This document shows positions 38,894 through 47,671 of a stretch of DNA of 64,000 bases, piece after piece. The notes beneath the pieces were generated by a model. The model made no database searches and was not told the origin of the DNA. It was given only the letters and a program-made list of their open reading frames with translations. Every line of letters starts with the position of its first letter. Position 1 is the first letter of the stretch. Origin of the DNA: Archangium primigenium (GTDB lineage Bacteria > Myxococcota > Myxococcia > Myxococcales > Myxococcaceae); NCBI RefSeq assembly GCF_016904885.1, contig NZ_JADWYI010000001.1:6138001-6202000 (forward strand), written 5' to 3'. Both the position numbers and the translations under genes were made by a program.

Positions 38894-39568
38894 TCAGCGT
38901 CGGGAGGTGTCGGGGGCCAGCCACAACCCCACGAGCGCGTCGACCAACACGTCCGCGGTGGCGGCCCACGTCGCGTGGGGCGCGGCGGTGCCCTGTTGCA
39001 GCTCACGCTCCCGCTCGGCGCACAGCTGCACGATGAGCAGCCGGCACATGACCCCGCGCTGTTGATGCACATGCTCGGGAAGCCGCGGCACCAGGCGGAA
39101 CATGCCCTCCACGAGCCGCTGGAGCGTGCTCGAGGCGAAGGCCTCCTGGGTGACGCGCTCGCGCAGCGTCGGGTTCGTCGTCACCTGGGCGATGAAGCGC
39201 GCGTACCAGGTCGGACTGCCCAGCGACTCCAGGTGCTCGATGGTCGGCCGCACGAGGCACGACACCCAGTCGCGCAGGTCGGTCGAGCCGGCGAGCGTCT
39301 CGAACATCTCCGCGCGGCGCCGCTCCACCGACTCGGCGTGCCGCCGCACGATCGCCAGCACCAGCTCGTCCTTGGAGCCGAAGTGATAGCCCACCGCGAA
39401 GTTGTTCGACTGGCCCGCCGCCTCGCTCACCTGTCGGTTGGAGACGGCCTCCACGCCGTGCTCGGCGAACAGCCGCTCCGCGGTGATCAGGATCTGCTCC
39501 CGCGTCTCGCTGCCTCGGTCGGACTTGCTCGGGCGCACGCCACCACCTCCGGAAAGGGTCTCTCCCAT
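38894..39568 (-). CDS. TetR/AcrR-family transcriptional regulator
   Basis: 224 residues. The N-terminal TetR DNA-binding domain (about 22-68) is clear: TREQILITAERLFAEHGVEAV, then SNRQVSEAAGQ as the first part of the helix-turn-helix and VGYHFGSKDELVLAIV as the canonical YxHFxSKxxL segment. The C-terminal ligand-binding half (about 90-224) is divergent. It is the first gene of a two-gene operon with the SDR gene. A strong palindrome sits 19 bp upstream of its start, so autorepression and control of the SDR are likely. The inducer is unknown. Confidence 0.93.
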   Translation of the reverse strand: MGETLSGGGGVRPSKSDRGSETREQILITAERLFAEHGVEAVSNRQVSEAAGQSNNFAVGYHFGSKDELVLAIVRRHAESVERRRAEMFETLAGSTDLRDWVSCLVRPTIEHLESLGSPTWYARFIAQVTTNPTLRERVTQEAFASSTLQRLVEGMFRLVPRLPEHVHQQRGVMCRLLIVQLCAERERELQQGTAAPHATWAATADVLVDALVGLWLAPDTSRR

Positions 39569-39586
39569 CCACCCACGCCGACACGA

Positions 39587-39621
39587 TTAAGTCGGACGAC
39601 TGATGAAGTCAACCGACTTAA
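39587..39621. promoter_or_regulatory. Palindromic operator upstream of the TetR-SDR operon
   Basis: An imperfect 35-bp palindrome. The outer arms TTAAGTCGG and CCGACTTAA are perfect 9-bp complements, two mismatched positions follow, and the inner arms GACT and AGTC pair again around a 5-base centre (13 of 15 positions symmetric). Its A/T-rich ends stand out from the surrounding G+C. It starts 19 bp upstream of the TetR ATG at 39568, the usual place for a TetR autorepression site. Confidence 0.8.
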
Positions 39622-39653
39622 AACGCGGCACGAGGGGGAGGACGCGGGCCGGG

Positions 39654-41814: not shown

Positions 41815-43065
41815 ATGAACCACTCCTGGAAGCCATTGTTGTCGGGTTCCCTGCGGAGTCAGGCCTTGGAAGTCGCCGAGGCCATCGTCGAGGACACCGC
41901 GGCCTTTCCCCTGGGCAAGACGCCTGGACTCATCGCGGGCCACACGGGCTACGCCCTCTTCTACGAGGCCGCCGCCCGCTCGCTCGCCCCCAAGTGGCTC
42001 GACCACGCCGCGCGCAGCCTCCAGCGCGCCGCGGCGCTCTTCACCCGCCGGGCGCGTCCGCCCCTGAGCCTGCACGAGGGACTGGCCGGGGTGGGCTGGG
42101 CGGCGTCCCACCTGGCCGCCCGCCACCCCGCGCTGGAGGTGGAGGAGCTGTGCGTCTGGGTGGACGAGTCCCTGGACGTGGAGATGAACCGCTCGCCGTG
42201 GCCCCACCCGTGCGACATCCGCGATGGGCTCGCGGGCATGGGGCTGTACGCCGCCAAACGCATGCCGCACCCGAGCGGGCGGCGGCTGCTCGAGCGCGCG
42301 GTGGCGCGGGCCCACGAGGCCGCCGAGCGCTCGGCCCTGGGCGCCACCTGGCCCATGCCCCCGAGCCGCTGGTCGCTCTACGGCGCGGACGCCACCTTCC
42401 CCCAGGGCCTCTACACGATGGGCCTGGCGCACGGGATTCCCGGCGCCCTGTGCCTGTTGAGCCTGGCGCACGCGCATGGCGTGTCGCGCGAGCACACGCG
42501 GCCCCTGCTGGAGGAGGGCTTCCGGTGGGTGGCGAACCACGCCGCGCCGGGCCACCCGCGCTTTCCGCACTACCTCAACGGCGCCGAGCCCGTGACGGAC
42601 ACGCGCTTCAGTTGGTGCGTGGGCAACCCCGGCATCACCGCGGCCCTGTGGTGGGCGGCGCATACCTGGAAGGACGCCGCGTGGGAGGCGCGCACCCTGG
42701 ACTGGGCCACGCGCGTGGCGTTGGAGGCGCTGGAGCGCGCGCCCTCGCACCCCAGCGCCAACCTGTGCTGCGGCACGGCGGGCACCGCCCACGTCTTCCT
42801 GCGCCTGTACCAGGCCACCGGGCAGTCCGTCTTCGGGGAGGCCGCGCGGCGGTGGATCGAACACACGCTGGCCCTGCGCCGGCCGGGCGTCGGCCCCGGG
42901 GGGTACTGCCACGAGCAGGATCCCAACGCCCCCGTCACCGACGTGCAGTTCGGCGCCGCGGGCATCGCGCTGATGCTGATGGCGGCCGCCACGGACCAGC
43001 CCCCCGACTGGGACGAGACCTTCCTCTTCTCCCTCGACTCTCCCCCCACCCCCCCGGAGGTCTGA
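41815..43065 (+). CDS. LanC-like lanthionine cyclase with Cys-Cys-Gly zinc motif
   Basis: 416 residues forming the alpha/alpha toroid of the LanC family, with repeated GLAGVGWAAS, DGLAGMGLYAA, GLAHGIPGAL, GNPGITAAL, GTAGTAHVFL and GAAGIALMLM turns. The catalytic His is in GLAHG (His206). Zinc ligands are Cys268 (SWCVGNPG) and Cys318-Cys319 (NLCCGTAG). The NisC-type protein has Cys-His-Gly at the last position, while Cys-Cys-Gly is the form known from the relaxed-specificity ProcM class of LanM cyclase domains. The expected reaction is addition of a peptide Cys thiol to a dehydrated Ser/Thr to form (methyl)lanthionine. The gene is followed after 5 bp by the LLM gene and then by a precursor-peptide gene. 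The ATG at 41815 is the only start fitting the domain. Confidence 0.92.
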   Translation: MNHSWKPLLSGSLRSQALEVAEAIVEDTAAFPLGKTPGLIAGHTGYALFYEAAARSLAPKWLDHAARSLQRAAALFTRRARPPLSLHEGLAGVGWAASHLAARHPALEVEELCVWVDESLDVEMNRSPWPHPCDIRDGLAGMGLYAAKRMPHPSGRRLLERAVARAHEAAERSALGATWPMPPSRWSLYGADATFPQGLYTMGLAHGIPGALCLLSLAHAHGVSREHTRPLLEEGFRWVANHAAPGHPRFPHYLNGAEPVTDTRFSWCVGNPGITAALWWAAHTWKDAAWEARTLDWATRVALEALERAPSHPSANLCCGTAGTAHVFLRLYQATGQSVFGEAARRWIEHTLALRRPGVGPGGYCHEQDPNAPVTDVQFGAAGIALMLMAAATDQPPDWDETFLFSLDSPPTPPEV

Positions 43066-43070
43066 CGCCC

Positions 43071-43991
43071 ATGCGCCTGGGAATCCTCGACTTCTGTCCG
43101 ATGCGTGAAGGGCTCAAACCCTTTCACAGTCTCCACGAGACCCTCTTCCTCGCCCAGGAGGCGGAGAAGCTCGGCTACTCGCGCTTCTGGATGGCCGAGC
43201 ACCACGAGTTGGAGTACGCGCAACACGCGCCCGACATGATGGTGCCGCTGGTGGCGGGCTCCACCGAGCGCATCCGCGTGGGCGTGGCGGGCATGCTGCT
43301 CAAGCTGCACAGTCCCCTGCGCGTGGCCAAGGCGTTCCGGCTGCTCGAGTCCCTCTTCCCGGGCCGCATCGACCTGGGCGTGGGCGGGGGCGAGGCCGCG
43401 CCGGACGTGGTCGCGGCGCTGCGCGACGGGGGCCCGCCCCTGGCCGAGGTGCGCGAGGCGCATGCCCAGCGCACCCTGCACCTGCTCTCGCTCATGCGGG
43501 GCGAGGTCGCGCCGGCCTTCCAGCCCCTGGGCACGCCCGCCCCTCCCTTCTGGATGCTGGGCCTGTCGCGTCCCGAGACCGCGCGCCTGGCGGCCGAGCA
43601 CGGCGCCAGCTTCGGCTTCTCGCTCGCCCATGCCCAGAGCAAGGACGATCCGAGCATCGCCGCGCGCTACCTGGACGCGTTCCGCTCCAACCGGTGGCTG
43701 GCGCGGCCGGAGCTGGTGGTGGCCGTCAGTGGCCTGTGCGCGGAAACGGAGGAGGAGGCCCGGGCGCTCGCGGTGGAGCACGTGGGCAACGCCGCGCCCC
43801 ACCTGTCCGTGGTGGGCAATCCCGAGCAGTGCCGCCAGAAGCTGGAGGCCATCGCCCACCGCTACCAGACAGACGAGCTCGTCTTCCACGACCGCGCCCC
43901 CGACAGCGCCTCGCGGCTGCGCTGCTACCGGCTGCTGTCGGCCGCGCTGGGACTGACCACGTCGGCGCCCCCGCTCCAACAGACGGCGTGA
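43071..43991 (+). CDS. LLM-class (luciferase-like) flavin-dependent oxidoreductase
   Basis: 306 residues. It carries the luciferase-like TIM-barrel marks of the MsnO8-type group: MRLGILDFCP at the N-terminus, AEKLGYSRFWMAEHHELEYA, TERIRVGVAGMLLKLHSPLR, GRIDLGVGGGEAAP and a C-terminal CRQKLEAIAHRYQTDEL segment. FMN or F420 use cannot be decided from sequence. It starts 5 bp after the LanC-like stop with a GGAGG at 43056-43060, so the two are co-expressed. LLM-superfamily F420 enzymes are known as dehydroamino-acid reductases (LanJC type) in some lanthipeptide pathways. A tailoring role on the peptide encoded at 44169 is inference; an independent oxidoreductase is possible. Confidence 0.88.
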   Translation: MRLGILDFCPMREGLKPFHSLHETLFLAQEAEKLGYSRFWMAEHHELEYAQHAPDMMVPLVAGSTERIRVGVAGMLLKLHSPLRVAKAFRLLESLFPGRIDLGVGGGEAAPDVVAALRDGGPPLAEVREAHAQRTLHLLSLMRGEVAPAFQPLGTPAPPFWMLGLSRPETARLAAEHGASFGFSLAHAQSKDDPSIAARYLDAFRSNRWLARPELVVAVSGLCAETEEEARALAVEHVGNAAPHLSVVGNPEQCRQKLEAIAHRYQTDELVFHDRAPDSASRLRCYRLLSAALGLTTSAPPLQQTA

Positions 43992-44005
43992 AGTCAGGCT
44001 CGGTC

Positions 44006-44067
44006 CCCGAGAAATCCCAGACACCTTTCCAAGAGAATGGAAATTGTCAGGGCAATGGTTTCTCGGG
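44006..44067 (+). promoter_or_regulatory. Long segmented stem-loop ahead of the precursor-peptide gene
   Basis: Starting 14 bp after the LLM stop, four nested helices stack: CCCGAGAAA with TTTCTCGGG (9 bp), CCC with GGG, GACA with TGTC, and TTTCC with GGAAA, closed by an 8-base loop. Total 21 bp with small internal loops. It could separate the enzyme genes from the precursor gene (partial terminator) or stabilise the precursor transcript. No T-run follows. Confidence 0.55.
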
Positions 44068-44168
44068 ACGGGTTCAGGAATCCGTGTGCCGTCACGAATA
44101 TTCCTTCACCGGCGGCGATGAGGACAAACCTCCTACTGACCGGCGCGAAAGCGAACACGGAGAAGACC

Positions 44169-44369
44169 ATGAGCGACGACACCAAGACCCAGACCGAGCC
44201 CCAGACCCTGAAGCTGTCCTTCAAGAAGGAGACGCTGCGCACGCTGGACGACAGCCAGCTGGATCTCCTCGACGGGGTGGTGGGTGGCAACAAGAAGGGC
44301 CGCTGCCAGTGCCTCTTCACCCGCGGCGGCGGCTGCAACACCACGGGCCACGACAACGACAACGACTGA
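44169..44369 (+). CDS. Double-Gly-leader RiPP precursor peptide (lanthipeptide-like)
   Basis: 66 residues. The ATG at 44169 has GGAGAAG 6 bases upstream. The leader (1-40) has the form seen in class I lanthipeptide leaders of Bacteroidetes and myxobacteria: KLSFKKETLRTL, then DDSQLDLLDGVVGG, ending in the double-Gly cleavage site for C39 peptidases. The 26-residue core begins NKKGRCQCLFTRGGGCNTTG and ends in an acidic HDNDND tail. It has three Cys (core 6, 8, 16), three Thr (11, 18, 19) and no Ser, so at most three methyllanthionine rings could form. Neighbours are a LanC-like cyclase and LLM enzyme upstream and a C39 ABC exporter downstream. If no dehydratase acts on it, a disulfide-bonded or unmodified peptide is the alternative. 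Confidence 0.85.
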   Translation: MSDDTKTQTEPQTLKLSFKKETLRTLDDSQLDLLDGVVGGNKKGRCQCLFTRGGGCNTTGHDNDND

Positions 44370-44400
44370 GCCCGACACGAAGGCGGAGCAGCGATGAATC

Positions 44401-44421
44401 CCGGGGAGAACACCTCCCCGG
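44401..44421 (+). terminator. Stem-loop between precursor and exporter genes
   Basis: A perfect 8-bp inverted repeat, CCGGGGAG and CTCCCCGG, around a 5-base loop, 31 bp after the precursor stop. There is no T-run. The position fits a partial terminator or 3'-stabilising hairpin that lets the precursor be made in excess over the exporter. Confidence 0.5.
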
Positions 44422-44516
44422 AGTCATGAAGTCGAGTTGAAAGCCATCCATGAGGGATGACCGGCAGGTCGTCCCTCTCGCTGTCTTGACACATCCCTCA
44501 AACCCTCACGGATTTC

Positions 44517-45452
44517 ATGACACCGCGAGACCTGTTCCGGCGGGAAGCGCTCGAGCACTACACCTTGAGCGAGGAGAAGGGCAGTCTGCTCAAGCTGACG
44601 CCGTTCTGGGTGCGCTTCACCTATTGGAACCTGGTGGCGCTCGCGCTCACGGCGGCGGTGGTGCTCGCGGTGGTGCGGGTGCACGAGTACGCGCAAGGGC
44701 CCCTGCTCATCCAGGTGGCGGGCGTGGAGGACATCCCCGCCACGGCGGGCGGACGCATCAGCCGGGTGCACGTGCAGCGGGGGCAGCGGGTGCGCGCCGG
44801 CGAGCCGCTGGTGCAGCTGTACGCCCGGGGCGAGACGGCCGAGCGCGAGCGCGTGGCGCAGGAGTACCGCGCCCAGCTCGCGGTGCGGCTCACGGATCCC
44901 CTCAACGCCACGGCCCGCCAGTCCCTGGGCACGCTGCGCGCCCAACTGGACTTGAACGACGCGCTCGTCTCCGAGCGCACCCTGGTGGCGCCCTTCGACG
45001 GCGTGGTGCGCGAGGTGCGGGTGCACGAGAACCAGTACCTGGGCGCGGGCGAGGTGGTGGCCACGCTCGCCAAGGAGGACACCGAGGTGAAGGCGCTCCT
45101 GCTCGTGCCGGGCCAGTACCGGCCCCGGCTCAAGCCCGGCCAGCCCCTGCGCCTGGAGTTGCAGGGCTTCTCCTACCTCTATCAGGACGTCACCGTGACG
45201 GCCGTGAGCGACGAGCTGCTCGGCCCCACCGAGGTGCGGCGCTACCTGGGCGCGGCGCTCGGGGACATCCTGAAGATCGACGGGCCCATGGTGCGCGTGG
45301 AGGCGCGGCTGCCGGACGCGGGCCTGCGCGCGCACGGGGACTCGTTCCAGTACTACACCGGCATGGTGGGCACCGGACGCGTCCAGGTGCGCAGCCGGAG
45401 TGGATGGATGCTGCTCATCCCGGCGCTCGACGCGCTGTGGGGGACCCCGTGA
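44517..45452 (+). CDS. HlyD-family periplasmic adaptor of a peptide exporter
   Basis: 311 residues. One N-terminal membrane segment lies at about 35-55 (WNLVALALTAAVVLAVV) after a cytoplasmic head with an REALEHYTLSEEKGSLLKL motif, as in type I peptide-export adaptors. The lipoyl half-motifs are split: GGRISRVHVQRGQRVRAGEP at about 79-98 and APFDGVVREVRVHENQYLGAG at about 161-181. A short helical hairpin lies between them and beta-barrel segments follow. It overlaps the ABC exporter gene by 4 bp (GTGA), so it is coupled to it. It would link the inner-membrane exporter to the outer membrane; no TolC-like gene is in the window. Confidence 0.9.
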   Translation: MTPRDLFRREALEHYTLSEEKGSLLKLTPFWVRFTYWNLVALALTAAVVLAVVRVHEYAQGPLLIQVAGVEDIPATAGGRISRVHVQRGQRVRAGEPLVQLYARGETAERERVAQEYRAQLAVRLTDPLNATARQSLGTLRAQLDLNDALVSERTLVAPFDGVVREVRVHENQYLGAGEVVATLAKEDTEVKALLLVPGQYRPRLKPGQPLRLELQGFSYLYQDVTVTAVSDELLGPTEVRRYLGAALGDILKIDGPMVRVEARLPDAGLRAHGDSFQYYTGMVGTGRVQVRSRSGWMLLIPALDALWGTP

Positions 45453-47671
45453 CGGACACCCTCTCCTTCTCCTCGTTGCTCGAGCGGTATCCCGCGCTGC
45501 GCGCGTTGGGCCAGCGGTGGAGGGGTCGGCGGCTGCCCTTCGTGGCCCAGGTGACGGCGGTGGACTGTGGCGCCGCGTGCCTCACCATGGTGCTCGGCTA
45601 TTGGGGCCGGAAGATGACGCTGGACGAGGTCCAGCGCGTCACGGGCCTGGTGAGCACCGAGGGCGTCAGCGCGCGCGCCATCCTCACCGCGGGCCAGTCC
45701 TTCGGGCTCAGGGGACGCGCGGCCCAGGTGGACGTGGAGGAAATCCACCTGCTGCCCATGGGGGCCATCCTCCACTGGGAGTTCGCCCACTTCGTCGTCT
45801 TCGAGGGGAGGACGCGCCGGGGCGTCACGATCCTGGATCCCTCGCATGGCCGGCGCTACGTGACGCTGGAGCAGTTCCGCAAGGCCTTCACCGGCATCGC
45901 GCTCGTCTTCGAGCCCACGGAGACCTTCGAGACGGGGGACGCGCCCCGGGGCTCCCACCGCTACCTGCGGCTGCTCCTGGAATCGCGGCCATTGCTCGGG
46001 CGCATCCTCTTCACGTCCCTCTTGCTCCAGGTGCTCGCGCTGGGGCTGCCCGTGCTCACCGGCGCCGTGGTGGATCAGGTGCTGCCCACCGGGGACGCGT
46101 CCCTGCTGGCCGTGATGGGCGCGGGCATGGCGGTGCTGCTCGTCTTCCAGGTGCTCTCCCTGCTCGTGCGCACGCACCTGCTCCTGCACCTGCGCACGCA
46201 CCTGGATGCCCGGCTCACCATCGGCTTCCTGGATCACCTCATCCACCTGCCCTTCTCCTTCTTCCACGTGCGCTCCACGGGGGATCTCATCGCCCGGCTC
46301 AACAGCAACACCACCATCCGGGAGATCCTCACCTCGGGCGCCCTCTCCGCCGTGCTGGACGGCTCGCTCGCCTCGCTCTACCTCGTGGTGCTCCTGGCGA
46401 TGAACTGGCAGATGGGGCTGCTCGCCGTGGGGCTCGCCGCGCTCCAGGTCGTGGTCTTCCTGGGGGCGCGCGAGCGGCAGCGGGAGCTGCTCGCCAAGGA
46501 TCTGGAGGTCTCGGCCGCTGCCCAGAACTACCAGGTGGAGATGATGACGGGCATCCAGACCATCAAGGGCATGGGCGTGGAGGGCCGCAGCGTGCAGCAC
46601 TGGTCCAACCTCTACGTGGACACGCTCAACGTGTCCCTGGAGCGCGGCCGGCTGGAGGCCAGCGTGGAGGCGCTCAACGGCGCTCTGCGGATGATCTCCC
46701 CGCTGGTGCTGCTGCTCGCGGGCACGCTCCAGGTGCTCCACCAGCACCTCCAGTTGGGGCAGATGCTGGCGCTCAACGCCCTGGGCGTGGGCTTCCTCAC
46801 CCCCATCGCGAGCCTGGTGGCGGCGTGCTTCCGGCTGCAACTGGTGGGCAGCTACCTGGAGCGCGTGGACGACGTGCTGGAGGCGCCACCGGAGCAGGCA
46901 CCCGGGGGGCCGCGACGGCCGCACGCGCTCGAGGGGGGCATCGCCCTGGAGAACGTCTCCTTCCGCTATGGGCCGCTCGCGCCGCTGGTGGTCAAGGACG
47001 TGTCCCTGCAGGTGCGGCCCGGGCAGTTCGTGGCCATCGTCGGCCGCTCGGGCGCGGGCAAGTCCACGCTCGCCCACCTGCTGCTGGGGCTCTACCTGCC
47101 CAGCGAGGGCGCCATCCGCTACGACGGCCATTCCCTGGTGGAGCTGGACCTGTACGACCTGCGCGGACAGATGGGCGTGGTGATGCAGAACCCCATGCTC
47201 TTTCGCGGCGACATCCGCCGCAACATCGCCTACCACGACACGGACCTGTCCCTGGACGCGGTCATCGAGGCGGCGCGGCGCGCGCAGGTGCACGACGACA
47301 TCATGGCGATGCCCATGCAGTACAGCACCCTGCTCAGCGAGATGGGCGGCTCCATCTCCGGCGGGCAGCGGCAGCGGCTCGCCCTGGCCCGCGCGCTCGT
47401 GCACGACCCGGCCATCCTGCTGCTCGACGAGGCGACCAACGCCCTGGACGTGAAGACCGAGCGCGCCGTGCAGGAGGCGCTCGAGCGGCTGCGCTGCACC
47501 CGGGTGGTCATCGCCCACCGGCTGAGCACCATCCAGGACGCGGACCTCATCCTGGTGATGGACAAGGGCCGCCTGGTGGAACAAGGCACCCACGCGGAGC
47601 TCATGGCCCTGCGGGGGCACTACTTCGGGCTGGTCTCCGCCCAGGAGCACCCCGCCGCCCCCACGGGCTGA
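45449..47671 (+). CDS. Peptidase C39-containing ABC exporter (double-Gly leader processing)
   Basis: 740 residues from a GTG at 45449 that overlaps the HlyD stop. The N-terminal C39 peptidase (about 28-160) has the oxyanion Gln and catalytic Cys in QVTAVDCGAACL (Cys40), His in FAHFVVFEG (His114) and Asp in ILDPSHGRR (Asp130), so the triad is complete. The transmembrane domain covers about 180-470. The nucleotide-binding domain has Walker A GRSGAGKST (about 532-540), signature ISGGQRQRLALARA, Walker B ILLLDEAT and the switch His in VIAHRLST. It should cleave after the VVGG of the precursor and export the core. The gene organisation with precursor and adaptor supports one export unit. Confidence 0.95.
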   Translation: MTDTLSFSSLLERYPALRALGQRWRGRRLPFVAQVTAVDCGAACLTMVLGYWGRKMTLDEVQRVTGLVSTEGVSARAILTAGQSFGLRGRAAQVDVEEIHLLPMGAILHWEFAHFVVFEGRTRRGVTILDPSHGRRYVTLEQFRKAFTGIALVFEPTETFETGDAPRGSHRYLRLLLESRPLLGRILFTSLLLQVLALGLPVLTGAVVDQVLPTGDASLLAVMGAGMAVLLVFQVLSLLVRTHLLLHLRTHLDARLTIGFLDHLIHLPFSFFHVRSTGDLIARLNSNTTIREILTSGALSAVLDGSLASLYLVVLLAMNWQMGLLAVGLAALQVVVFLGARERQRELLAKDLEVSAAAQNYQVEMMTGIQTIKGMGVEGRSVQHWSNLYVDTLNVSLERGRLEASVEALNGALRMISPLVLLLAGTLQVLHQHLQLGQMLALNALGVGFLTPIASLVAACFRLQLVGSYLERVDDVLEAPPEQAPGGPRRPHALEGGIALENVSFRYGPLAPLVVKDVSLQVRPGQFVAIVGRSGAGKSTLAHLLLGLYLPSEGAIRYDGHSLVELDLYDLRGQMGVVMQNPMLFRGDIRRNIAYHDTDLSLDAVIEAARRAQVHDDIMAMPMQYSTLLSEMGGSISGGQRQRLALARALVHDPAILLLDEATNALDVKTERAVQEALERLRCTRVVIAHRLSTIQDADLILVMDKGRLVEQGTHAELMALRGHYFGLVSAQEHPAAPTG

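Follow-up and report, generated by a model that had tools for sequence, protein, structure and literature searches.

A lanthipeptide-type cluster with no LanB gene

The stretch of DNA analysed here (64,000 nucleotides of Archangium primigenium, contig NZ_JADWYI010000001.1, positions 6,138,001 to 6,202,000 of the forward strand; the window, below, means this whole stretch, with positions counted from its first letter) contains five intact genes at 41815-47671, all on the + strand, that encode a LanC-type cyclase, a luciferase-like flavin oxidoreductase (LLM), a double-glycine precursor peptide and an HlyD/C39-ABC exporter pair. That these five genes lie together had been proposed in an earlier reading of the letters alone (the sequence-only reading), and matches to Pfam and NCBIfam models confirmed it. 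The features are as follows.

41815-43065, + strand: LanC-type cyclase, 416 aa (PF05147, E 1.1e-30)
43071-43991, + strand: LLM luciferase-like flavin oxidoreductase, MsnO8 family (PF00296, E 4.2e-33)
44169-44369, + strand: precursor peptide, 66 aa; leader 44169-44288 ending VVGG, core 44289-44366 reading NKKGRCQCLFTRGGGCNTTGHDNDND
44370-44516, + strand: plain 147-bp intergenic gap from precursor to HlyD, the place of LanB in 3 of 5 relatives
44517-45452, + strand: HlyD-type membrane-fusion protein of the exporter (PF13437, E 9.8e-17)
~45449-47671, + strand: C39-peptidase ABC transporter (PF03412, PF00664 and PF00005; Peptidase_C39 E 1.9e-31)

The LLM protein scored 211.6 bits against the NCBIfam model of the MsnO8 family (TIGR03558, cut-off 166.95), and the 26-residue core NKKGRCQCLFTRGGGCNTTGHDNDND holds three Cys, three Thr and no Ser. 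The GTG at 45449 is the likely start of the transporter, whose predicted function is double-glycine cleavage and export.

The sequence-only reading had further reported no LanB or LanM nearby, which domain searches and tblastn of 42 LanBs bore out. Genome-wide searches with both LanB Pfam domains returned two places each, none of them within the window, and only 1 of the 380 rows of the tblastn search against the window (low-complexity filter off) fell below E 0.01. This row (39149-39622, 27% over 194 aa, E 4.4e-4) was taken as a chance match, since its frame is antisense to a TetR-like gene and a second LanB reached only E 0.13 there. No remnant was found in 44151-44700, which includes the gap between precursor and HlyD (best tblastn E 0.12-0.20), and no LanM, LanKC or LanL in the cluster, both LanKC genes of the genome lying outside it.

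Orthologous clusters in relatives carry LanB

When the window LanC was searched against 145 genomes of the order, 38 (own genome included) had matches, with orthologues at 57-59% identity in five other genomes (G046, G096, G105, G059 and G061) and a next best match of 41%. The same six LanCs stood out, at 741-774 bits, when 195 genomes of the phylum were searched with a profile; nothing else there exceeded 305. The in-cluster LanB gene that is a criterion of class I is absent from the window cluster and present, as a full LanB, inside all five orthologous clusters: in G046, G096 and G105 at the position of the window's 147-bp gap, immediately between precursor and HlyD, and in G059 and G061 after the precursor, with the HlyD-ABC pair on the other side of LanC. 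An LLM gene occurs in three of these five clusters; LLM matches at E <= 1e-60 were obtained in 5 of the 145 genomes (own included), four of them within this cluster type.

The loci compared are those fetched, namely 20 LanC places (a subset of the LanC places found) and 8 LanB places, with the end of L061 and the start of L062 left out and with genes called in the relatives by a simple codon-position-GC script. One of these loci, L071 (G076:C2), holds two LanB-like genes in tandem together with a LanC and two ABC transporters.

The proposal of the sequence-only reading that the cluster may be a distinct class of ribosomally synthesized and post-translationally modified peptide (RiPP) is not supported by these results. 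That reading had stated beforehand that its proposal would be refuted by a LanB gene conserved next to the cluster in close relatives, and such a LanB was found in all five orthologous clusters. In addition, the window leader closely resembles that of the LanB-bearing nearest relative, G046, and scores like it on the class I model NF038153 (21.7 vs. 21.8 bits, both slightly short of the cut-off), and a role of LLM enzymes in lanthipeptides has been reported (LanJC, in PMC7268733).

Two LanB genes elsewhere in the genome

The search for LanB-type dehydratases that the sequence-only reading had suggested succeeded: the genome (9.49 Mb in three contigs, 98.6% completeness) encodes two, at 3.756 and 8.159 Mb, together with four LANC_like proteins, two of which are class III LanKC (NF038151) at 6.05 and 8.55 Mb. 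The LanB at 8.159 Mb is part of a class I cluster (8.154-8.162 Mb) that is complete, with LanC, HlyD, ABC and precursor genes beside the LanB. The other, hereafter the solo LanB, lies at C1:3,755,565-3,758,774, 2.42 Mb from the window cluster, and is an open frame of 1070 aa (PF04738 542.9 bits, PF14028 187.6 bits). Within its 19.5-kb locus (9 kb upstream and 7 kb downstream) no precursor was found by motif search or leader hidden Markov model, and no LanC.

The solo LanB and a PMT_2-type glycosyltransferase gene (L008:12385-13923) sit between rodA and the next gene. At this site LanB is absent from all five relatives examined, out of ten genomes with a rodA match: rodA directly adjoins the next gene in G073, G074, G075 and G046, and another open reading frame of 218 aa lies between them in G043. 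The solo LanB therefore looks inserted. Relatives of the PMT_2 gene, at 73% and 69% identity, were found in two of eight genomes searched (G075 and G096), in other surroundings.

The solo LanB grouped with 14 other LanBs at 100% support (LanB trees were built from 30 and from 18 of the 42 collected sequences). In 13 of these 14 an HlyD/C39-ABC pair lies in the same locus (beyond LanC in G059 and G061), and the fourteenth is a solo copy, flanked by a precursor-like gene, in the congener G075. The LanBs of the five orthologous clusters belong to the same subfamily, at 53-58% identity to the solo LanB, each being closer to it than to the own-genome canonical LanB. The G075 copy (L104, G075:C1:6280078) is 62% identical to the solo LanB and stands in a different locus; its neighbouring precursor-like gene has neither Cys nor Gly-Gly and ends SFTRPPTWSRPPTW.

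Across this subfamily, precursors with Cys accompany LanC: 13 of 13 precursors in LanC-bearing clusters (window included) contain Cys, against 2 of 16 at loci without LanC. A spurious motif hit (L055:737) was dropped from this tally, and the 16 include one unlinked precursor from G105, a genome with LanC elsewhere. The pairing fits dehydration followed by ring closure by LanC, and would fit dehydration alone where Cys is absent. Four loci without LanC (L105, L106, L107 and L108, in G080, G107, G100 and G105:C8) combine LanB, HlyD and C39 genes with as many as seven precursors that are rich in Thr and mostly free of Cys; these are candidates for dehydrated, uncyclised peptides. An apparently dispersed LanB/precursor pair in G105 was set aside when the motif search located a precursor at the LanB locus, and an additional orphan precursor remains at G105:C34.

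In the 8.154-Mb class I system, the core of the canonical precursor at C1 8154293 (NGDSAGVIC... type) recurs in similar form in six unlinked copies, at 2889174-2890215 (three copies), 1338287, 1338637 and 1731967 (with the canonical one, loci L013, L021, L022 and L023), which suggests a dispersed precursor set. The six were considered as substrates of the solo LanB and, as all six cores on reading resemble the 8.154-Mb precursor, were assigned to that system.

The cyclase and the LLM enzyme

The window LanC has the acid His206 (AHGIPG) and the zinc residues Cys268 (SWCVG) and Cys318-Cys319 (NLCCGTAG), in motifs that align with NisC and 8byk. By sequence it thus has the catalytic His and three zinc ligands of a stand-alone zinc LanC, the third ligand being Cys rather than His. 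It belongs to a six-member clade (support 100/100) in which all members have NLCCG and SWCVG, which points to a Cys-Cys-Cys zinc site and puts Val at the position of NisC Tyr285; of the 17 further LanCs in the tree, 16 carry CHG and WCYG, and G047_4013 matches neither pattern. A configuration of LanB with a Cys-Cys-Cys cyclase ('B-CCC') is tabulated in PMC11251773 with two predicted peptides, so the combination is already known but rare. LanMs with the CCG motif are described in PMC10027976 as highly promiscuous, and no experimentally tested class I CCG cyclase was found in the open-licence literature searched.

A luciferase-like enzyme is described for the birimositide cluster in PMC7268733, where the masses were consistent with conversion of one Ser to D-Ala and the name LanJC was proposed. 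The window LLM is likewise a PF00296 enzyme in a lanthipeptide cluster, and by analogy we propose a LanJC-like reductase of dehydro-residues, which would turn Dha/Dhb into D-Ala/D-Abu. A search with PF01933 for possible F420 dependence was uninformative, since E. coli matched too.

Dehydration in trans as the favored explanation

We favor, at a probability of roughly 60%, the hypothesis that the window cluster is of class I, represents a myxobacterial lanthipeptide subfamily (Cys-Cys-Cys-zinc LanC, LanB, HlyD and C39-ABC, often with LLM), has lost its own LanB and has its peptide dehydrated in trans. The hypothesis is favored by the presence of a solo LanB from the very subfamily found in the five orthologous clusters and of a second LanB in the genome, and is further supported by the unlinked precursors (six copies) of the other class I system of the same genome. 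The trans dehydratase is probably the solo LanB, and otherwise may be the 8.16-Mb LanB. The system is most likely a pathway of the ordinary kind with a displaced part, that is, in an unusual arrangement. Accordingly, where the sequence-only reading had left a choice between a dehydratase acting in trans and other chemistry by the LanC-like protein and the LLM, the former fits the two LanBs found in the genome and the latter is disfavored by the LanB in 5 of 5 relatives.

Under this hypothesis, the solo LanB, alone or helped by the other LanB, would bind the leader and convert core Thr residues to dehydrobutyrine via glutamyl-tRNA; the zinc LanC would then add Cys thiols to the dehydrobutyrines to form methyllanthionine rings, the LLM may reduce a leftover dehydro-residue, and the C39-ABC/HlyD pair would cleave after Gly-Gly and export the peptide. 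We infer both the action in trans on the window precursor and each of these chemical steps.

The trees indicate how the arrangement may have come about. The window ABC and HlyD proteins are each sister to the G046 copy (support 97/97 and 97/95, respectively), the branching order inside the six-row LanC clade is not resolved, and the solo LanB groups with the LanBs of G075 and G080 (85/91). A simple move of the cluster's own LanB to the rodA site is contradicted by the LanB tree, in which a clade of the solo LanB and G046 LanB is rejected (p 0.002 in the approximately unbiased test, p-AU), while ABC and HlyD pair the window with G046. This conflict leads us to conclude that the cluster's own LanB was probably lost and that the solo LanB is of separate arrival.

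Several observations weigh against the favored hypothesis. The rejected clade just mentioned is one of them, as are the weak rejection of a six-row LanB clade (p-AU 0.037) and the rejection of a grouping of the window ABC with that of G080 (p-AU 8e-5). The window leader scores just under the curated NF038153 cut-off of 22 bits. Among the 41 LanBs longer than 900 aa, 122 columns are invariant once the solo LanB is set aside, and it deviates at 8 of these; its changes include R826H and Y827L (NisB numbering; codons read), the Arg at 826 being kept in all 40 other LanBs compared. Finally, in relative-rate tests the solo LanB had 138 unique changes vs. 88 in the G075 solo copy (p 0.001).

The controls and the remaining rate tests put these figures in context. 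When each of the 40 other rows was left out in turn, 30 showed 0 or 1 departures and five showed 6 to 10, one of these five being the G080 LanB (6), of the same subfamily as the solo LanB. The solo LanB did not differ significantly in rate from the LanBs of G080 (p 0.20) or G061 (p 0.11) and had fewer unique changes than the G046 LanB (118 vs. 152, p 0.04), which is itself faster than the G061 LanB (149 vs. 84). Given these mixed results, speed alone does not mark the solo LanB as decaying.

As to the altered residues, Arg826 is described in PMC9486935 as facilitating elimination, as conserved in normal lyases and as highly conserved in anti-eliminating ones, and Table 1 of PMC4341554 lists normal dehydration for NisB Y827F and none for H961A. 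The solo LanB keeps R784, R786, E823 and H961 (NisB numbering, counted by hand along the 4wd9 alignment), and its stretch RYLARMAGRATPFG fits NisB Y80/R83/R87/T89 by spacing (judged by eye, from an alignment to other LanBs rather than to NisB). Since the glutamylation residues are seemingly kept and His and Leu stand at 826 and 827, glutamylation by a LanB with no elimination of its own is conceivable. We therefore see a small chance that the solo LanB is functionally changed, such that it may carry out glutamylation of the core, with elimination (or another elimination geometry) falling to another protein, e.g., the second LanB, and with the CCC-zinc LanC closing the rings. If true, the genes of one class I lanthipeptide pathway would be scattered over distant loci, and two LanBs would share its labor.

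Alternative explanations

The alternative to which we give the most room, while still holding it unlikely, is that the cluster is a remnant, i.e., that LanB was lost, that the peptide is made and perhaps exported with no thioether rings, and that the genes are on their way out. The LanB is indeed gone from its usual place with no trace, the solo LanB is altered at conserved sites, and a search of three congeners gave no orthologous LanC. However, the LanC, LLM, HlyD and ABC genes are intact, and none of the four proteins has evolved significantly faster than its G046 counterpart (p 0.18-1.0 in seven comparisons, with two outgroups each and one for LLM; window LanC vs. G061, p 0.26), although a recent loss would give no signal yet. 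Unique changes were slightly more numerous in the window copies of LLM, HlyD and ABC and less numerous in that of LanC, in no case significantly. The precursor, its leader and its double-glycine site are also intact.

It is doubtful, too, that the canonical LanB at 8.16 Mb acts in trans alone, with the solo LanB decaying or serving something else. This LanB keeps the elimination-site Arg (ERYGG) that is His in the solo LanB, and its present substrates presumably include the six unlinked precursors, whose cores are similar. On the other hand, it belongs to another LanB clade, its own leaders (..NLSDE.LDQV.GG) differ from the window leader (..LDDSQLDLLDGVVGG), and its partner LanC (CHG) falls in a different clade from the window LanC (CCG).

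A distinct RiPP class, in which LanC and LLM act on the three-Cys core with no dehydration, is very improbable: a cluster without dehydratase and a LanC with the unusual Cys-Cys-Cys site and Val for NisC Tyr285 would suit it, but the same LanC clade is accompanied by LanB in 5 of 5 relatives, so that the unusual zinc site is not tied to a missing dehydratase, and three Thr are available for the three Cys. That the organism's cluster has a LanB lost from the assembly is hardly credible, given three contigs at 98.6% completeness and a plain 147-bp intergenic stretch between precursor and HlyD.

Comparison with known systems and other features of the window

Like nisin-type class I clusters (LanA, LanB, LanC and ABC exporter), the window cluster has a leader resembling the L1a type (slightly below the model cut-off), a zinc LanC, a Cys/Thr core and an ABC exporter, and its relatives have LanB; unlike them, it has no LanB in the cluster, a Cys-Cys-Cys LanC zinc site, and a C39 exporter with an HlyD partner. 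Its LanC-clade relatives, with LanB beside a CCG-motif cyclase, correspond to the B-CCC configuration as given in PMC11251773, from which the window cluster differs by the loss of its LanB. The ProcM/SyncM-type class IIa systems, as described in PMC10027976 and PMC11251773 (CCG-motif LanM, scattered precursors), share the CCG zinc motif and the unlinked enzyme and precursor, but in the window system LanB and LanC are separate proteins and the unlinked part is the dehydratase, not the precursor. The window LLM, a putative reductase, resembles LanJC as a PF00296 enzyme in a lanthipeptide cluster; however, it is of the MsnO8 subfamily, and birimositide is by the account in PMC7268733 a class II-type two-component lanthipeptide. 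Finally, the unclustered lanthipeptide proteases described in PMC8960859 also represent a pathway enzyme encoded away from its cluster, a leader protease there and the dehydratase here.

Elsewhere in the window, an open frame of 10,098 aa at 4226-34522 (- strand) is probably a giant surface-type protein: a scan of 9,600 of its residues showed many Big_7, Big_5 and TIG domains of the bacterial Ig-like kind, along with LVIVD repeats. The SDR, TetR and caspase-like genes at 38-41 kb, as well as rodA, mreC/D and hemA, were named by eye, and a scan for promoters and terminators gave nothing useful.

Implications

Our results suggest that a LanC and exporter found with no dehydratase in a genome scan do not necessarily indicate new chemistry, and that the missing gene may be traceable via synteny in relatives and via members of its subfamily elsewhere in the genome. 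The findings also draw attention to a candidate enzyme pair, in which the cyclases, from a LanB-linked clade, carry the Cys-Cys-Cys zinc site known elsewhere from promiscuous class II enzymes, and to a LanB that naturally lacks the conserved elimination Arg.

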